From: Burkholderiaceae bacterium | GTDB lineage: Bacteria; Pseudomonadota; Gammaproteobacteria; Burkholderiales; Burkholderiaceae_E | Assembly (NCBI GenBank): GCA_024643785.1 | Contig: JAHEMI010000002.1 | Span: 1 to 62,919, forward strand | Reading direction: 5' to 3' | DNA length: 62,919 nucleotides | Part shown: positions 5,205-62,919 of the stretch, one piece after another | How positions within the stretch are numbered: position 1 is the stretch's first letter | How the letters are laid out: every line of letters starts with the position of its first letter | Notes under the pieces: model-generated | What the model saw: only the letters and a program-made list of their open reading frames with translations | The model's database searches: none | Told to the model about the DNA's origin: nothing | Program-made: the position numbers and the translations under genes

Positions 5205-7169
5205 ATGACAAGTTCAGAGCCCAAGATTCGCATCGAGACGCGGGAAGAGCTGATCTACATGCTGGCCGAGGCCGCTGCGATCGAGCACAACGTGATGTGC
5301 TGCTATTTCTACGGCATCTGGAGCCTGAAACGCGGCGAGCATGACGGCTTGACGCCGGAGCAGGCGCGAATCGTCGCCTCCTGGAAAGGCGCGATGACCA
5401 GAGTCGCGATCGAGGAGATGACCCACCTGACGCTGGTCGCCAACCTGGCCGCAGCCATCGGTGCCGGGCCCCATTTTTCGCGACCCAATTTCCCGGTCCC
5501 GCAGGGCTATCACGCGGCTGGCGTGGACCTCGAGCTGTTCGGGTTTTCGCCCGCATTGATCGACCACGCGATATTCCTGGAGCGCCCCGAGGGTGTCGAC
5601 CTGCACGATGCGCCGGAATTCGTGCACCCGGCGGATTACCACCGGACCGCGCCCAAGGGCACGATCATGCCCAGCGCACAGGATTACCTGACCATCGGTC
5701 ATCTCTATCGCGGCATCATGCACGGTTTCAAGGTTCTGGCGGCTAAATTGGGCGAGGAAACGCTCTTCTGCGGCGACAAGACCGCCCAGGTCGGTCCTGC
5801 AGATGCGCCGCTGCCGGGATTGTCGCTGGTCACCGACCTGGCGAGCGCGACGGCGGCGATCGAGACGATTGTCACGCAGGGCGAAGGCGCCGCCCAGCAC
5901 TCCGAGGACAGCCACTACGCCAAGCTCTGTGCCCTGCGAGCGCAATTCGAGCAGCTGGCAAAGGACGATCCCGGTTTCGCCCCCGCCTTTCCGGTGGCCA
6001 GGAACCCGGTCATGCATCGCGAAGACCGCCAGGAAGGCTGCATCCTGATCGACAACCCCGCGGCTGTCGCGGTGCTGGATTTCGCCAATTCGGTCTACGG
6101 CCACATGCTGCGCTGCCTGGTGCAGTCATACGGCCGCGCTGCCGACGACGCCGACAACAAGCGCTTGTTCGTGACCCTGGCGCGCGAGTTGATGTCGATC
6201 CTGACGCCGGTTTGCGAGCACCTGGCCTCGCTCCCGGCCAGCGAGTCGGCGCCAGGGGTCAATGCCGGCATGACCTTTACCATGCTGCGCGACGTGGCGC
6301 GGGTGCCGGAAGGACGCGCCGAGATGCGCATGATGTCCGAGCGGATGGAGGAAATGGCCAATCAGGCAGATCGCCTGTTCCCCGCAGGCCACGCCCTCGA
6401 TGGCATCGGCGATGCACTGCGCGGACTGGCCTCGAAAATCAGCGCGCCGGGCGCGCCGCGCGTCGTCGCGGCGGTGAAACCGCATGACGACAAGCCAAAA
6501 CCGGCAGCGGCTGACCAGAGCGGCGCCGCTGAAACGGTCGGTCGCGAGGAAGGCCGGGACATGATCCTTAGCTTCGACACCAGTAAGTGCATCCACGCCC
6601 GGTTCTGTGTCCTGGGCGCGCCGGAGGTGTTCCTGTCCGGCGTCGAGGGCCAGTGGATCTGGCCCGACCGGATGGAAACCCAGGACCTGCGTGCGGTCGC
6701 CCACAACTGCCCGTCAGGCGCGGTGAGCTACGTTCCCAAGGGCGCTACCGAGGCCGAGCCCGCACCTCATGTGAACACGGTCAATATCCGCGAGGACGGA
6801 CCATACGCGTTTCACGCGCCACTCGAGCTCGATGGCGAGAAGGTCGGATTTCGCGCCACCCTGTGCCGCTGTGGCGCATCGAAAAACAAGCCTTTCTGCG
6901 ACAACTCCCATAAAGCGATCGGCTTCAAGGCTACCGGCGAGCCCGGCACGCGGCCGTCCGAGCCGCTCAAGGTCCGCAATGGTCCCCTGGTGGTCACGCC
7001 GCAGAAGAACGGCCCGCTCCAGGTTGAGGGCAACCTGGAAATAATCGCCGGGACCAACCGCAACGTTGACCGGGTGCAGAGAGTCCGGCTGTGTCGTTGC
7101 GGCGGCTCGAAGACCAAGCCCTTCTGCGACAACACCCATCTGAAAATCGGCTTCAAGTCTGACCGGTAA
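5205..7169 (+). CDS. ferritin-like, [Fe-S] and double CDGSH domain protein
   Basis: This 654-aa protein combines three metal-binding parts. Residues 10-250 look like the ferritin-like domain found in VioB-type proteins, with candidate iron ligands in AEAAAIEHN (E27/H28) and IEEMTHL (E70/E71/H74). Residues 453-512 match a divergent ferredoxin-like domain (Fer4_19 type) with C462, C468 and C502. Two CDGSH zinc-finger-type [2Fe-2S] motifs follow: C554, C556, C565, H569 and C630, C632, C641, H645, each with the expected 3Cys-1His ligands. A redox, iron or oxygen sensing role is plausible; no reaction can be named. The hybrid kinase gene begins 44 bases downstream, so the two probably form an operon. 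Domain calls are strong and the function unknown. Confidence 0.85.
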   Translation: MTSSEPKIRIETREELIYMLAEAAAIEHNVMCCYFYGIWSLKRGEHDGLTPEQARIVASWKGAMTRVAIEEMTHLTLVANLAAAIGAGPHFSRPNFPVPQGYHAAGVDLELFGFSPALIDHAIFLERPEGVDLHDAPEFVHPADYHRTAPKGTIMPSAQDYLTIGHLYRGIMHGFKVLAAKLGEETLFCGDKTAQVGPADAPLPGLSLVTDLASATAAIETIVTQGEGAAQHSEDSHYAKLCALRAQFEQLAKDDPGFAPAFPVARNPVMHREDRQEGCILIDNPAAVAVLDFANSVYGHMLRCLVQSYGRAADDADNKRLFVTLARELMSILTPVCEHLASLPASESAPGVNAGMTFTMLRDVARVPEGRAEMRMMSERMEEMANQADRLFPAGHALDGIGDALRGLASKISAPGAPRVVAAVKPHDDKPKPAAADQSGAAETVGREEGRDMILSFDTSKCIHARFCVLGAPEVFLSGVEGQWIWPDRMETQDLRAVAHNCPSGAVSYVPKGATEAEPAPHVNTVNIREDGPYAFHAPLELDGEKVGFRATLCRCGASKNKPFCDNSHKAIGFKATGEPGTRPSEPLKVRNGPLVVTPQKNGPLQVEGNLEIIAGTNRNVDRVQRVRLCRCGGSKTKPFCDNTHLKIGFKSDR

Positions 7170-56794: not shown

Positions 56795-58003
56795 ATGCAA
56801 ACCTCCATCTTCGCGACCGTCGAACTGGCGCCGCGCGATCCGATCATGGGCCTCACCGAGGCGTACAACCTCGACACGCGTCCCAACAAGGTCAATCTCG
56901 GGGCAGGTGTTTATACCAATGAGGCGGGTAAGGTTCCTCTCCTCGCTGCAGTGCGTGAAGCTGAGAAGCAGCGGATCGAAGCTGCGCTGCCGCGCGGCTA
57001 CCTGCCGATTGAAGGCATCGCGGCCTACAACCGCGCGGTGCAGGAAATGCTCTTTGGTGCCGATTCACCGCTGCTGAGCGGCGGCCGGGTCGCAACTTTC
57101 GGGGCCCTGGGAGGCACTGGAGCACTAAAAGTGGGCGCCGATTTCCTGCGGCGCATCAATCCGCAGGCCGGCCTGTGGATCAGCGACCCGAGTTGGGAGA
57201 ACCATCGGGCGCTCTTCGAAGCCGCCGGATTCAAGGTCCAGACCTACCCCTACTACAACGCCGATACCAAGGGAGTGCGTTTCGACGAGATGATTGCCGC
57301 GCTCGCCGCCCTCCCCGCCGGCTCGGTCGCGCTGCTGCACGCCTGCTGCCACAACCCGACCGGGGTCGATATCCAGCCGGAACAGTGGCAACAGGTAGTG
57401 GCAGCCCTGAAGAAATCTGGCGCTGTCCCCTTCCTTGACATCGCCTACCAGGGCTTCGGTGACGGCATCGAGGACGACGCAGTTGCGGTGCGCGCCTTTG
57501 CCGCCTCGGGAATGAACTTCTTCGTGGCCAGTTCGTTTTCCAAATCGTTCTCGCTCTACGGCGAACGGGTCGGTGCGCTGTCGATCATCACCAGCGACAA
57601 GGACGAGACTGCCCGGGTGGTCAGCCAGGTCAAACGCGTCATTCGGACCAACTACTCGACCCCTCCGACGCACGGTGAAGCCATCGTAGCAACCGTGCTC
57701 GCCGATCCCAAACTGCGCGGGTTGTGGGAGGAAGAGCTTGCCGGAATGCGCGACCGGATCCGGGAAATGCGGGCTGGGCTCGTCGAGCGGCTCAAGGCCG
57801 CCGGCGTGACCTCTGATCTCGACTACGTCGTGCGCCAGCGCGGGATGTTCTCGTATTCAGGGCTGAGTGCCGCCCAGGTCGAGCGTCTGCGCACCGAATT
57901 CGGCGTCTACGCGGTGAGTTCGGGTCGGATCTGCGTTGCCTCGCTCAACAAGGGCAACCTCGACACCGTGGCCAAAGCGATGGCAGCGGTGATGGCGGGC
58001 TGA
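56795..58003 (+). CDS. aspartate/aromatic aminotransferase
   Basis: This 402-aa class I PLP aminotransferase resembles AspC/TyrB. The PLP lysine is K250 in SSFSKSFSLYGERVG, and the substrate-binding TYPYYN, ACCHNPTGVDI and C-terminal GRICVASLN regions are intact. It should interconvert aspartate or aromatic amino acids with 2-oxoglutarate. AspC and TyrB cannot be told apart here. It is divergent from uvrB and ends 57 bases before tRNA-Asn. Confidence 0.93.
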   Translation: MQTSIFATVELAPRDPIMGLTEAYNLDTRPNKVNLGAGVYTNEAGKVPLLAAVREAEKQRIEAALPRGYLPIEGIAAYNRAVQEMLFGADSPLLSGGRVATFGALGGTGALKVGADFLRRINPQAGLWISDPSWENHRALFEAAGFKVQTYPYYNADTKGVRFDEMIAALAALPAGSVALLHACCHNPTGVDIQPEQWQQVVAALKKSGAVPFLDIAYQGFGDGIEDDAVAVRAFAASGMNFFVASSFSKSFSLYGERVGALSIITSDKDETARVVSQVKRVIRTNYSTPPTHGEAIVATVLADPKLRGLWEEELAGMRDRIREMRAGLVERLKAAGVTSDLDYVVRQRGMFSYSGLSAAQVERLRTEFGVYAVSSGRICVASLNKGNLDTVAKAMAAVMAG

Positions 58004-58060
58004 CTGAACAAAGCTGATTTGCAGCGCGGGGGCGACCCACGTTATTATTGAGGGCTGTAT

Positions 58061-58136
58061 TCCCCGATAGCTCAGCTGGTAGAGCGACGGACTGTTAATC
58101 CGCAGGTCCCAGGTTCGAGCCCTGGTCGGGGAGCCA
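58061..58136 (+). tRNA. tRNA-Asn(GTT)
   Basis: The 76-base gene starts TCCCCGA and ends TCGGGGA-G-CCA, pairing over seven bases, with an encoded CCA. The anticodon loop CTGTTAA gives GTT. D-loop AGCTGGTAGAG and T-loop GTTCGAGCC are normal. Its 3' part is repeated at 60003 and 60966, so it is the apparent attachment site for mobile DNA. Confidence 0.97.
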
Positions 58137-58145
58137 AGAAAAGCG

Positions 58146-58183
58146 ACAGGCTGGTAACGAAAGTTGCCGGCCTGTTTTGTTTT
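58146..58183 (+). terminator. terminator of tRNA-Asn
   Basis: ACAGGCTGGTAAC and GTTGCCGGCCTGT form a 13-bp stem with two G-T pairs around a GAAA tetraloop, followed by TTTTGTTTT. This exact unit, with one base changed in the stem, recurs at 60056 and 61000. Confidence 0.92.
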
Positions 58184-58211
58184 GAGGGTCGGTATTGGGG
58201 GGCGGTTGGGG

Positions 58212-58343
58212 CTACCCGCGGGTGCCCCAGAGTGGCCCATCAAAGCGCGCAGCCAGTGCCACCAGCGTCTGGTCGCCCTTGACGGCAGCGATAGCCACCT
58301 TCGCCTTGAATTCCGCTGTGTGGTTACGATGAGGTCTTCTCAT
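58212..58343 (-). pseudogene. IS3-family transposase OrfA remnant
   Basis: The frame from ATG 58343 reads MRRPHRNHTAEFKAKVAIAA and then VKGDQTLVALAARFD, which is the N-terminal helix-turn-helix of IS3-type OrfA transposases. It breaks off after RFD and ends at a stop at 58212 after GPLWGTRG, which is unrelated. The break coincides with the end of the repeat shared with 61037-61100, so the transposase was cut by the rearrangement at the tRNA-Asn site. Confidence 0.7.
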
Positions 58344-58458
58344 GCTCTCTGCTCCTTCGGACACTTCGGTCCATTGTTGCGGAGACTCCACTTATCCCGC
58401 TGTCCGATTTGCCGGGGGCACTTCTGCCGTGCCACCGTATGACGGGTTCACAGATGCG

Positions 58459-58929
58459 TTATACGTTCCGCCCCAGCGGTGGCCCCCAGTTGTCGCGCAA
58501 AGTGGCCATCAGATCGGAAAAGTCATCCTCTCCGATCCTACTTTTAAGAACGCCTTCCACCTCGGCAAGGCATTGCCTGGCATCAGCAATGACCGTCATC
58601 CCCTTTGGGGTCATCCGGATCAGTTTTTGATTTCGTCTCGTCGGATCATTCTCCAGGATAAGAATACCCAGTGCCTGTAGTTCGCGCGTCGTCCGATAGA
58701 CCGCCTGGCGAGTAACACCTGTGCGCCTGGCAACGGATGACGCATGCGTTTCCCCACAGTCGAGGTTTGCCAGGAATGCAAGGTGCGCGGCGCTCACCTC
58801 GGTCTGACCGCGGATCGCCATCAAGTGCAACAGGCTCAGAAGAACCCACTGCTGGGCATTGACAAGTAGTTGTCCAAGGGGAAGCACTGTAGCGGGTAAT
58901 GGTGAAGATCTTGTAAACTTGGTTGACAT
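58459..58929 (-). CDS. MarR-type winged-helix regulator
   Basis: This 156-aa protein has a MarR-like winged helix-turn-helix: SSVARRTGVTRQAVYRTTREL as the recognition region, then a wing (NDPTRRNQKLIRMTPKGM). It is divergent from the membrane-protein gene at 58989, the usual layout for a MarR repressor and its target. A 10-bp inverted repeat spans the gap. It lies in the island at tRNA-Asn. The ligand is unknown. Confidence 0.75.
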   Translation of the reverse strand: MSTKFTRSSPLPATVLPLGQLLVNAQQWVLLSLLHLMAIRGQTEVSAAHLAFLANLDCGETHASSVARRTGVTRQAVYRTTRELQALGILILENDPTRRNQKLIRMTPKGMTVIADARQCLAEVEGVLKSRIGEDDFSDLMATLRDNWGPPLGRNV

Positions 58930-58972
58930 ATGTAAAATCCTTGTGCAGACTTCTTGTCATCTAAGTTTACAA
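58911..58972. promoter_or_regulatory. inverted repeat across the divergent MarR/membrane-protein promoter
   Basis: TTGTAAACTT at 58911-58920 and AAGTTTACAA at 58963-58972 are perfect 10-bp inverted copies. One overlaps the 5' end of the regulator gene and the other lies just upstream of the membrane-protein gene. They are candidate half-sites for autoregulation. A -35-like TTGACA is at 58923 on the plus strand. Confidence 0.6.
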
Positions 58973-58988
58973 CATTGAAGGTCAGGAA

Positions 58989-59849
58989 ATGCACATCCTC
59001 AGGATCGTTCTTCGGCTAAATGCTGCCTCATGCCTCGTTTTCGGTGCGATCTTCCTATTACATCCGGAGGCAACCGCCCGACTGCTTGGCGCACCATCAT
59101 CTCTTGCAATTTTGTTTGTTGGCGTCGTGTTGCTGTTCAACGGTGGACATCTTGTCTGGGCATCGCAACGTCGTCAGCCGCGTCCCGCCGAAATCTATTA
59201 TTTCACCACGGGCGACCTGCTCTGGGTCTCGCTTACCATAGTACTGGTCGGGACTGAAACTTTCATCACCACAAGCGAGGGCATCATTGCCTCGTTGCTC
59301 GTTGCTGCCCTGGTCGGCGCTCTTGGCATACTCCAGGCGGCAATGTTGGGGAAGGTCAACAGGACGCAGGCAGGAGATGACCATTTGCCTGAGCATCTCT
59401 CAACAGCGCGAGCCATCGCAACATCCTGGCTATCGATGAAAACATGGGTGAAGTACTGGTTGCTTGGCTTAAATGCCATTTTTCTTGCAAGCGCCGCGTT
59501 CTGGCCCGACCCGCTGGCCCGCTTCAGTTTGACAGCGTATCTGGCATCTGCGCCGTGGCTCCTGGCAATAATGATCAGCCAGCGCGGCTTGACACGTTTT
59601 CTTGGGGTAGCCCACCTCATCCCCTGGATTCCATTGATGGTGTATTTGTTTCTACGATTTACCACTGAGATCGCCGGCCCCCAGATTTCGTACCACGACA
59701 CCCCTTTTCAATTCTCTTTCGCACTGACACTGCTGACTATGCTCGGCGTTTGCCTTTTGCTAGATGCCATTGACGTCTGGCGCTGGATACGCGGAGAGCG
59801 CTATCGTCTTGGGTCAGCGGCTGCGGCAAGACGCGGCGCATCGGCGTGA
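58989..59849 (+). CDS. integral membrane protein of unknown function
   Basis: This 286-aa protein has about eight hydrophobic helices with short loops, split by a hydrophilic loop near residues 120-145 (GKVNRTQAGDDHLPEHLST). I do not recognise the family. AGGTCAGGA precedes the ATG. It is divergent from a MarR-type regulator, so it may be the regulated partner, perhaps a transporter or stress membrane protein (inference). Confidence 0.65.
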   Translation: MHILRIVLRLNAASCLVFGAIFLLHPEATARLLGAPSSLAILFVGVVLLFNGGHLVWASQRRQPRPAEIYYFTTGDLLWVSLTIVLVGTETFITTSEGIIASLLVAALVGALGILQAAMLGKVNRTQAGDDHLPEHLSTARAIATSWLSMKTWVKYWLLGLNAIFLASAAFWPDPLARFSLTAYLASAPWLLAIMISQRGLTRFLGVAHLIPWIPLMVYLFLRFTTEIAGPQISYHDTPFQFSFALTLLTMLGVCLLLDAIDVWRWIRGERYRLGSAAAARRGASA

Positions 59850-60138
59850 AGCAAGTCGGGAATGAGGCAGTGGTATCGATCACCGACTCAGACACTGGCT
59901 GTTGAATTGCACTTAAAACTGACCCACCGGGGATGCGGAGTGCAGCAGAAAACTCGTTAGGAATCTTCTGCTTAGCGGCCATAGAAAAGACTCTCTGTTC
60001 TTCTGTTAATCCGCAGGTCCCAGGTTCGAGCCTTGGTCGGGAGCCAAGAAGAACGACAGGCTGGTGACGAAAGTTGCCGGCCTGTTTTGTTTTGGGGGTG
60101 CGCAGTTCGCCGCCGCCAAACTGCGGCAATGGCATTCC
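59850..60138. other. island junction without a gene
   Basis: These 289 bases hold the second tRNA-Asn 3' repeat (60003-60093). Around 59902-59932 the text TTGAATTGCACTTAAAACTGACCCACC resembles a terminal repeat of an insertion sequence, but I cannot name the family with confidence. No credible gene is seen. Confidence 0.4.
60003..60093 (+). repeat. second copy of the tRNA-Asn 3' end and terminator
   Basis: CTGTTAATCCGCAGGTCCC through GGGAGCCA repeats 58092-58136 of tRNA-Asn with one substitution and one missing base, then the terminator hairpin follows. The copy starts at the anticodon loop, a common crossover point for tyrosine recombinases. The 5' half of the tRNA is absent, so it cannot be a functional tRNA. 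Confidence 0.9.
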
Positions 60139-60843
60139 TCACATCTCTATGCCGTACTCCGCGCGAAACGTTGGATGGTTGATGATTTCCGAGATCGTCT
60201 TCTGCACGGCTGGCACGAACCCATGACGGGCACGCTGATAACGAAGGGCGCCGGAAAAGGCTCCCTCAAAGCTATAAGCTGTCTTGACGGTGTATGGGGC
60301 GCGGTCGCCAATCGTGACTATGACCTCGAGTTCCCACGAGTGACTCCCGATAAAACAGTAGACGTCGATCTTCTTCAAGGCTATGGAGACCTTTGTCCTG
60401 TCGGGACTCGCCGGTTGCTCGGACGCAGCGAGTTCTTGGTTGAAGGCTGATTGAAAATATTGCGTAAAGGTCTCATCCGCTCCTGAGTGAATTCCGGTGC
60501 CGCAATAAACTACTTTATCCTCGGGTGCGCAATCAACCGGAGGACTGTTCCCTTGCAGGTTAGATGGACTGCAGTCCCCGCTCGTACGAACCCGAGAAAC
60601 TTCGCCAAGTTCGACTGATCTCCGCGCTGTGCGGAGAACACTGACGTTGGAATCAGAAATCGTGTACGCGGGAATGAAAGGCGCGCCTGATCTAAGTTCT
60701 GGAGTCACAACTGCTGTGTCCGCGAGGCCGGCAAGCACGTCCGATGTCACGATGATCCCCGTTTGGACGCACCCACCAAGCTGGGTAGCCACGAGAAGTG
60801 CCGTCGCTTTGCGGTGCCAACCATTGGCGAATCCAGGAGCCAT
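60139..60843 (-). CDS. putative lipoprotein of unknown function
   Basis: This 234-aa protein starts with a basic N-terminus and a hydrophobic stretch ending in a lipobox-like LGGC (C25), so it may be exported and lipid-modified. The mature part has seven or so Cys, including two in DCSPSN and DCAPED contexts, which might form disulfides. I do not recognise the family. It lies between the second and third tRNA-Asn repeats, so it is probably cargo of the last cassette. Confidence 0.55.
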   Translation of the reverse strand: MAPGFANGWHRKATALLVATQLGGCVQTGIIVTSDVLAGLADTAVVTPELRSGAPFIPAYTISDSNVSVLRTARRSVELGEVSRVRTSGDCSPSNLQGNSPPVDCAPEDKVVYCGTGIHSGADETFTQYFQSAFNQELAASEQPASPDRTKVSIALKKIDVYCFIGSHSWELEVIVTIGDRAPYTVKTAYSFEGAFSGALRYQRARHGFVPAVQKTISEIINHPTFRAEYGIEM

Positions 60844-60965
60844 GTCTTCCTCCAGGTATTTGTGGCGGCCTCTTCGGGCTCGCTCACCGAGAACCTCGGG
60901 AACACACTACGCACTGGCCGGGGGTCCGTCTACTTACTCCGGCGTTACTTATTGTGGAAACTAAT

Positions 60966-61037
60966 GGTTCGAGCCCTGGTCGGGGAGCCAAGAAGTCCAA
61001 CAGGCTGGTGACGAAAGTTGCCGGCCTGTTTTGTTTC
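60966..61037 (+). repeat. third copy of the tRNA-Asn 3' end and terminator
   Basis: GGTTCGAGCCCTGGTCGGGG through AGCCA repeats the T-arm and acceptor of tRNA-Asn (58112-58136) exactly, followed by the same terminator. Similarity to the sequence after the intact tRNA continues to about 61100 (GGGTCGGTA-TGGGG and AGAGTGGCCC). This looks like the distal att site, with the tRNA-proximal sequence displaced by the insertions. Confidence 0.88.
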
Positions 61038-61132
61038 GGGGGTCGGTACTGGGGCGCGGGATGCATGGCTACCCCCCCCGCTGCTGCAGAGTGGCCCCAG
61101 GTGGCGCGACCGATGAACCATGTGAGGCACAT
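61038..61132. other. flank shared with the tRNA-Asn downstream region
   Basis: This stretch has GGCTACCC, AGAGTGGCCC and nearby blocks in common with 58185-58240, in the same order but with gaps. It seems to be the original sequence downstream of tRNA-Asn. No gene is seen. Confidence 0.5.
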
Positions 61133-62707
61133 CTACACGCCCCGCAAGAACCCCATCGCTCCAATAGGCTCCGCCGAAGTGGCGCAAAGCAGGCCTCCGA
61201 CAAAAGCCCCAACCACGCCACAGCTGGCAACATCAACCCCTGCCATGTACAGATTCTTGACGGGTGTGCGCGGCCGCAGCCAGGGGTTGCTGTAACGCTC
61301 GGGGGTTGATTCGAGGCCGTAGATGGCGCCCCGAGTGGCGCACGTAAAGTGCTCCGTGGACACGGGAGTCGACAATTCGGTGTAGGCGACCATCGGAGCG
61401 AGATCCGGCATATGCTTGAGCAATGCGCCCAGGAGCTGCTCAGAGAGTTTCTCCTTGAGGTCCATGTACTCTTGCCCGCGCTTCATCCATCTCGCGTCGC
61501 GCCATCGCGCGAAGTCTCCGTAGGGCACGAAGGTGACGATTTCTCCGGTGTGCAGCTGATCCGGGCCGGGATCGTGCTGTGGATTCTTGAGCGAAGGAAA
61601 GCTCGTATAGAGCACGGGCGCCTCCTCATTCCTGGAGAAATTCCAGGAGGCCGCTTCGTTGTCCCAGGTGCGATAGAACCATTTGTTGGCTGCTCCGGCC
61701 CCGGCCTTTCTGATGTCGCCCTTGAATCCGAGGTGGAGGCAGACGTACGCGGGGGAGGAGGCCAACTCGCCGATCGATTTCGCCCATTGCGCGTTGCGTT
61801 GGCGATCCGGCAGAAGCTTGCTCACGGTGGTGTGTGCGCCCGCTGCGCTCACGACGGCCTTGGCGCGGATCTCTTCGCCCGTATCCAGACGCACGCCGAT
61901 GGCCCGGTCGGACTTCACCAGGATCTTGTCAACCGCCGCCCGGATGCGCGTCCATCCGTCGGAGGCTGCGATGGTTGCCAGCATGCTGTCGGCGATGGAT
62001 CTGGCGCCGCCACGCGGATAGTGACCGCCATACCAGAAGTGTTTGGCGGCGGCGGCGTGGATACCCCACGATGAGCGGCTCGGGGGCGTGCCGTAGTACC
62101 CCCACTGCGCCGCGAGCACCGTGCGCAAACGCTCGTTGGAGGTAATGCGTTGCAGGCTGTCGCTAGTACGTTGCCGGAGAAACCGCTCGCCCTTCCTGGC
62201 AAGCAGCAGGTCAGTGGCTCGTGAAATTGGCCCACTGAAGATGCGCGACAGGAAGTAAGGCTGGAGAGCTTCCGAGATTTCCGCGACTTGACTCATGTAC
62301 TGCGCGATGGCGCCGCGTTCGGCCGGAAATGCCGCACCCAGCGCGTCCATTACCGCCAAGCGGTCGCTCGGGAATCCGATCCTGAAGTCATCCGGGAAGT
62401 AGAACTCGTCGTAAACGGTGGACAGCGGCTCCCACTCCAGCTTGCCGTTCGTGAGCTTGTGCATCACCCGCCCGACAACCGCCTTCTCCGAGACCTCACC
62501 GACCGCATGCACGCCGACATCCCAGACCCAACGCCTGCGTTTGAAGGTTTGTGTGAAGCCGCCGGGAACGTAATGTTGCTCCAGCAGTAGAACGCGCTTA
62601 CCCAACCTGGAGAGCAGTGCTCCGCAGGCCATCCCCCCCATGCCCGAACCGATGATGACGTAGTCCCAAACGCGGTCGGGAGAACTCGTGCTGTAGTTCT
62701 TTTCCAT
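61133..62707 (-). CDS. CrtI/RetSat-like FAD-dependent oxidoreductase
   Basis: This 524-aa protein has an N-terminal dinucleotide-binding motif (VIIGSGMGGMACGALLSRLG, residues 18-37) followed by LLLEQHYVPGGFTQTF, and a C-terminal FAD motif NLYMAGVDVASCGVVGA. These are the marks of phytoene desaturase and retinol saturase-like enzymes that desaturate or saturate polyene or isoprenoid substrates. The substrate cannot be read. It lies just past the last tRNA-Asn repeat, so it may be resident or part of a larger island beyond the window. Confidence 0.85.
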   Translation of the reverse strand: MEKNYSTSSPDRVWDYVIIGSGMGGMACGALLSRLGKRVLLLEQHYVPGGFTQTFKRRRWVWDVGVHAVGEVSEKAVVGRVMHKLTNGKLEWEPLSTVYDEFYFPDDFRIGFPSDRLAVMDALGAAFPAERGAIAQYMSQVAEISEALQPYFLSRIFSGPISRATDLLLARKGERFLRQRTSDSLQRITSNERLRTVLAAQWGYYGTPPSRSSWGIHAAAAKHFWYGGHYPRGGARSIADSMLATIAASDGWTRIRAAVDKILVKSDRAIGVRLDTGEEIRAKAVVSAAGAHTTVSKLLPDRQRNAQWAKSIGELASSPAYVCLHLGFKGDIRKAGAGAANKWFYRTWDNEAASWNFSRNEEAPVLYTSFPSLKNPQHDPGPDQLHTGEIVTFVPYGDFARWRDARWMKRGQEYMDLKEKLSEQLLGALLKHMPDLAPMVAYTELSTPVSTEHFTCATRGAIYGLESTPERYSNPWLRPRTPVKNLYMAGVDVASCGVVGAFVGGLLCATSAEPIGAMGFLRGV

Positions 62708-62919
62708 CGATCACTTTGTGCGCACATTCAGACGAATTGTCAAGATTCCGACGAATGCCTGAATTCTTCACTGCGTGTCGGCTCCGATCACGAAGGCGGA
62801 CGGATTTCGGCTACTTGAAACCTTCTCGCCGCGCGTCGTCGCGATCGCAACACGACTTCCATCCATGACTGGCGCGGCTACAGGGGGCAGGTCACCTGGG
62901 GAAGGTAATCATGGAGGCT
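62708..62919. promoter_or_regulatory. upstream region of the FAD oxidoreductase with operator-like repeats
   Basis: ATTCAG at 62726 and CTGAAT at 62759 are inverted, and GACGAAT occurs twice inside (62731 and 62750) in direct orientation. This clustered symmetry about 20-55 bases before the minus-strand ATG looks like a regulator site. An ATG at 62865 or 62911 on the plus strand could begin a divergent gene that leaves the window, but too little is visible to call it. Confidence 0.45.

Follow-up and report, generated by a model that had tools for sequence, protein, structure and literature searches.

The window analysed here is the whole of contig C154 (62,919 bp) from the genome of a Burkholderiaceae bacterium (G000; 2.66 Mb in 179 contigs, 96% complete), and it ends in an array in which two partial copies of the 3' part of the transfer RNA (tRNA) gene tRNA-Asn(GTT), each with a hairpin terminator, lie behind the intact gene and bound two small gene cassettes (Table 1). 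The contig end at position 62919 truncates the array. No paper on this locus was noticed among the literature matches listed, and nothing wider is claimed.

Table 1. Features at the tRNA-Asn locus (positions in the window; aa, amino acids; FAD, flavin adenine dinucleotide).
Feature	Position	Strand	Evidence or remark
Intact tRNA-Asn(GTT), presumed integration target	58061-58136	+	ARAGORN
Terminator hairpin of intact tRNA, family A	58145-58176	+	-24.0 kcal/mol, then T-run
IS3-family transposase gene fragment (cassette 1)	about 58254-58430	-	~70% DNA identity to annotated IS3 transposases
MarR-like regulator, 156 aa (cassette 1)	58459-58929	-	MarR_2 and winged-helix matches, all under curated cut-offs
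286-aa protein, hydrophobic by eye (cassette 1)	58989-59849	+	Divergent from MarR-like regulator; family unassigned
Second copy, between cassettes 1 and 2: tRNA-Asn anticodon loop (position 32) to 3' end, plus terminator	60003-60099	+	94% identity; hairpin at 60055-60086
234-aa protein, sole gene of cassette 2 (~0.9 kb)	60139-60843	-	No known family
Third copy: tRNA-Asn T-arm (position 52) to 3' end, plus terminator	60966-61059	+	90% identity; hairpin at 60999-61030
FAD-dependent oxidoreductase resembling carotenoid isomerases/desaturases, 524 aa	61133-62707	-	Pfam; NCBIfam under cut-offs

An earlier sequence-only reading had proposed that the 3' part of tRNA-Asn recurs twice together with its terminator, that the copies shorten from the 5' side (first to the anticodon loop, then to the T-arm), and that they bound cassettes of about 1.9 and 1.0 kb. 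Similarity searches confirmed both copies and the order of their shortening; the E-values, computed for this one genome, are 1.9e-36 for the second copy and 2.4e-31 for the third, and the copies are therefore not due to chance. The start-to-start distances in the T-arm-anchored repeat family (1910 and 944 bp) agree with the proposed cassette sizes. Both partial copies lie downstream of tRNA-Asn in the same orientation, neither retains a trace of the tRNA 5' half, and ARAGORN called no second tRNA between position 58136 and the contig end. The intact gene (copy 1) and copy 3 stay alike for approximately 35 bp past the 94-bp repeat, as far as about 58238 and 61097 (the latter more weakly), and copy 2 drops this extended similarity at about 60099.

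The DNA between the copies looks foreign by composition and by the distribution of its tested proteins. The two cassettes have guanine-plus-cytosine (G+C) contents of 55.1% and 56.1%, compared to 65.5% in positions 1-58000 of the window, where the lowest value among 188 windows of 1.8 kb was 58.8%. The 286-aa and 234-aa proteins have no Pfam or NCBIfam match, and each was found in only one of 74 family genomes, namely G000 itself (E<=1e-8; the presence search covered these two proteins and left out the MarR-like regulator). Among plasmids, the 286-aa protein had no match and the 234-aa protein one weak partial match, and a DNA search of the array against plasmids returned only IS3 matches among the best 20 of 865. 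In viral contigs, two repeat patterns had no exact match, and neither the 286-aa protein nor an integrase from a sister genome (see below) had a confirmed relative; a phage search with the tRNA gene was uninformative, returning mostly phage tRNA-Asn genes among the best 10 of 1154 matches. No phage or transfer genes were seen among the main open reading frames (ORFs) scanned with Pfam, a scan not aimed at transfer genes. Beyond the third copy, the FAD-dependent oxidoreductase lies in a stretch of 61.7% G+C, nearer the value of the genome, and was found in nine of the 74 family genomes including G000 (E<=1e-30) but in none of three sister genomes. It is probably the next accessory unit, and its absence from the sister genomes indicates that the stack probably extends past position 62919.

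The locus was compared with the three sister genomes of the genus (G001-G003) and with pieces fetched from 12 of the 70 other genomes in the family set. The order uvrB, aminotransferase, tRNA-Asn on a single contig (with gaps of up to 5 kb) was found in all three sisters and in nine of the 12 other genomes; despite this conserved anchor, the DNA behind tRNA-Asn differs. The sister arrays carry other ORFs between the same kind of repeat, behind tRNA-Asn itself as well as on other contigs. Altogether, 16 partial tRNA-Asn copies were counted in the genus (5, 1, 5 and 5 in G000 to G003, respectively, thus 11 in the sisters), excluding an ambiguous 35-bp match at G003:C113:22203-22237 that resembles tRNA-Met as well; G002 and G003 have four more, weaker sites that consist of only the last tRNA bases and a terminator. 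One clear partial copy each was found in G029 and G045, two of the 12 further family genomes. Five other tRNAs (Ser, Met, Ala, Lys and Pro), a convenience choice already at hand, gave six partial 3' copies together in the same four genomes, which marks tRNA-Asn as a hotspot, with tRNA-Pro second. Four of these six belong to tRNA-Pro(CGG) (G003:C56:7955-7999, G002:C49:85835-85880, G002:C44:4819-4863 and G003:C100:1020-1068); ARAGORN reports one of the four as a short tRNA-Pro gene, and this tRNA may be a second hotspot in the genus. In G001, a terminase gene lies within 600 bp behind the intact tRNA-Asn, and on contig C269 of that genome (L039:1-519 and 1078-1132) a reverse-transcriptase gene (PF00078), possibly part of a group II intron, stands beside a partial tRNA-Asn copy.

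Two short contigs carry further arrays of this kind. On contig C17 of the same genome (3,079 bp), three more diverged tRNA-Asn copies surround a YdjM-family gene and an NAD(P)-binding/NmrA-like gene, and this array and that of the window may be one. One partial copy on C17 (L008:110-177) is followed directly by an inverted tRNA-like 3' half. A search with the terminator pattern recovered L133 (JACZJB010000172.1; 3,747 bp), binned as part of an Anaerolineales metagenome-assembled genome, in which three copies are arranged around a PEP-CTERM protein gene and a dienelactone hydrolase gene, and a cupin gene identified by a weak match lies outside; this contig carries the array type with the terminator of the genus and is probably mis-binned. 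The two other contigs recovered by the pattern, from Burkholderiaceae bacterium LH_M1 and LH_M2, correspond by their site pattern to contigs of G003 and G002, respectively. Copies are spaced by 1.9 and 1.0 kb in the window, by 1.5 and 1.0 kb on C17 and by 1.4 and 1.3 kb on L133, and copy-to-copy distances over all arrays measured range from 0.7 to 15 kb.

The repeats share a characteristic structure. Their left edges fall at tRNA positions 28-65 (leaving aside G003:C100:662-730, discussed below), many of them at 30-40, in the anticodon stem-loop. A hairpin with a T-run was found within 85 bp at 18 of 23 partial sites (one of the 18 being weak and unlike the others), a set that includes L133 and the four weaker sites, compared to 26 of 300 random stretches drawn from six of these loci. 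At least three sequence families can be told apart among the terminators, and copies that share a family mostly have unrelated flanks farther out. Similarity between copies usually stops 40-100 bp past the tRNA, and a few pairs are alike upstream as well (L008/L036, L036/L039 and L043/L045). Judging from these sequences, the terminator families may represent lineages of elements, each bringing its own terminator. A search for terminator family B in 200 genomes of the order found nothing and was uninformative, as the sample held no known carrier.

The window contig had no match in genome-wide six-frame searches with PF00589 and PF07508, and none of its main ORFs resembles an integrase, in agreement with the earlier statement that the cassettes lack one. 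An integrase with a matching attachment site, which that reading had suggested looking for elsewhere, did not turn up in G000: the single PF00589 match in this genome is XerC-like (TIGR02224, 329 bits, just under the cut-off of 335) and adjoins what by eye appears to be dapF, and there was no match to PF07508 (small resolvases were not searched for). With the genome 96% complete and PF00589 catching a single Xer-type gene, an integrase may have been overlooked. Recombinases do occur beside partial copies in two sister genomes. In G002, a partial copy lies 1.45 kb from a tyrosine integrase of 418 aa that has an arm-binding domain, and on G003:C120 the 3' end of an ORF for a 538-aa large serine recombinase (L041:4730-6346) overlaps a partial copy (6302-6347), which suggests a serine integrase that targets tRNA-Asn.

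The best-supported explanation for these observations, and a very probable one, is that the region is an additive genomic island built by serial site-specific integration into the 3' part of tRNA-Asn, with units that lack a recombinase of their own. It is supported directly by the partial copies, their terminators, the conserved anchor, the hotspot character of tRNA-Asn and a low-G+C cargo that relatives lack, and by the sister genomes, which have other cargo at this kind of site and recombinases by two of the copies. The additional arrays on C17 and L133, the terminase gene behind the intact tRNA-Asn of G001 and the many left edges in the anticodon stem-loop also speak for it. An incoming element would supply a tRNA 3' half with its terminator and so restore the tRNA gene, and the earlier 3' half and terminator would be displaced downstream as a partial-copy scar. 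The crossover would fall between the anticodon loop and the T-arm, and both the origin of the copies by integration and the order of insertion are inferences. The units in the window may have lost their recombinase or may have been moved by the enzyme of another element; decay appears somewhat more likely than mobilisation in trans. Several observations weigh against this explanation. There is no recombinase in or next to the units of the window, and the acting enzyme is thus without a candidate there. An attempt to name the recombinase by way of the sister integrase failed, as its closest family homologue (66%, in G057) lies in an 18-kb piece with no tRNA-Asn copy and no tRNA. The 102-107 bp beyond the tRNA that copies 1 and 3 have in common at 80% exceed what integration needs, and other tRNAs, tRNA-Pro in four cases, also have partial copies. 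Terminator family A stands behind the intact tRNA in three of the four genomes and also behind the partial copies of the window, so that the insertion order cannot be read from the terminators. Finally, the comparison is based on one genome per species.

There are several alternative explanations for such an array. The units may be non-autonomous cassettes of 1-2 kb with one or two genes, for which the tRNA half and terminator would form the site of an integron-integrase-like recombinase acting in trans. This is possible but rather unlikely: small units in which no recombinase or phage gene was recognised do occur on three contigs (the window, C17 and L133), and the repeats have the tRNA half and terminator in common and mostly different flanks, but no enzyme able to act in trans was found in G000 (small resolvases again lying outside the search), and the upstream DNA is mostly unrelated, with few pairs alike, although a single trans-acting enzyme might be expected to need shared arm sites; neither circular forms nor movement of the units were observed. 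Tandem duplication of tRNA-Asn followed by decay of the 5' halves would fit the co-orientation of the copies behind the gene and the downstream DNA they have in common, and the copy at G003:C100:662-730, which aligns with gaps from tRNA position 5, may be a decayed whole gene. The sequence-only reading had itself raised the prospect of relatives with an unbroken region and plain tandem tRNA duplicates; instead, the copies are separated by low-G+C DNA absent from relatives, the cargo of the sisters differs, and the sister copies have other terminators and lie on other contigs. Duplication is therefore scarcely credible in general, and for the window it is ruled out by the foreign-looking DNA between the copies together with the lack of any 5' remnant.

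The array might also consist of integron cassettes with decayed attC sites. Convincing attC-like hairpins occur in the G002 array behind tRNA-Asn (L035; 4250-4316, 4779-4835 and 5822-5884), where they sit in the first units behind the tRNA, and one occurs on G003:C120 (L041:398-467); fragments of intI are present in G001 and G003. The attC finder, which was self-made and uncalibrated and counted hits on both strands, returned 17 hits over 6.1 kb in an integron-bearing relative, eight in 4.8 kb of the G002 array and 14 in positions 1-58000 of the window, but none in positions 58001-62919, on C17 or on L133, and only five weak hits in 14 kb of the G003:C5 array. The integron integrase model TIGR02249 matched over its cut-off in 16 of the 74 family genomes (some of the genes not intact), but not in G000 (96% complete). 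With zero hits from a finder that works on the integron-bearing relative, this origin was dropped for the window, where it is very improbable; a link to integrons holds for the G002 array but found no support in the window. As a separate observation, G002 and G003 have approximately 450 bp behind tRNA-Asn in common at 75%, and a stretch of about 240 bp in L035:3346-8000 (G002:C39) that was taken as attI-like recurs at L041:2745-2508 with 78% identity. A genus-wide conjecture combines several of these elements: the tRNA-Asn 3' half and terminator would be a shared integron-like site, at which recombinase-free single-gene cassettes are collected by the enzymes of other elements (phages and islands with tyrosine or serine recombinases) and, in a sister, merged with integron cassettes. 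This conjecture is doubtful, and we put it forward with little confidence.

Serial integration at tRNA-Asn would place the region within a known kind of genome growth. It is ordinary in kind, and its distinctive features are the terminator-bearing repeat and the very small units. Additive flexible genomic islands have been described in Alteromonas, Ca. Actinomarinales and Methylophilaceae (PMC10872708, PMC4119200, PMC5217437, PMC7771536); in the cited passages, the last 20 nt of tRNA-Lys recur as copies in the Methylophilaceae island fGI-2, which has units of 330 bp to 42 kb with 1-63 genes. The array resembles these islands, as described there, in its fixed tRNA anchor, the partial tRNA copies at cassette ends, the small units and the cargo that varies among relatives, and differs in using tRNA-Asn and in a repeat that includes a hairpin terminator of several sequence families. 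The ssrA islands of Dehalococcoides, according to the sections cited, likewise have many tandem copies of an RNA gene 3' end downstream of the gene, and for 15 of them, which have no integration module, a cis-mobilizable nature was proposed (PMC3146451), in parallel with the units here; however, 16 such islands are reported there to have one conserved serine-recombinase module, whereas the sisters studied here have unrelated recombinase types and the window has none. Accretion of cis-mobilizable elements (CIMEs), in the definition given in PMC5704250, is similar in that units stacked one behind another at a tRNA 3' end are bounded by attachment-site-like repeats and have no recognised integration genes, and by analogy such units might be mobilised. 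Transfer genes were not seen among the main ORFs of the window, in a scan not aimed at them and an array truncated by the contig end; unlike in that definition, no neighbouring helper element was seen in the window. An integron cassette cluster without an integrase is comparable in its row of single-gene cassettes and in the attC-like sites of the sister array, but the window array has no attC-like site and G000 no intI. The array also differs from a tycheposon, as its contig has no tyrosine recombinase (PF00589) and the sole match in G000 is XerC-like.

These results document, in little-studied environmental bacteria, a hotspot of insertion whose units are unusually small and where one tRNA is common to integron cassettes, cassettes without a recombinase and several types of recombinase. 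If it is true that the terminator travels with the element, this would explain how tRNA-Asn stays terminated, and the cargo insulated, through repeated insertion.

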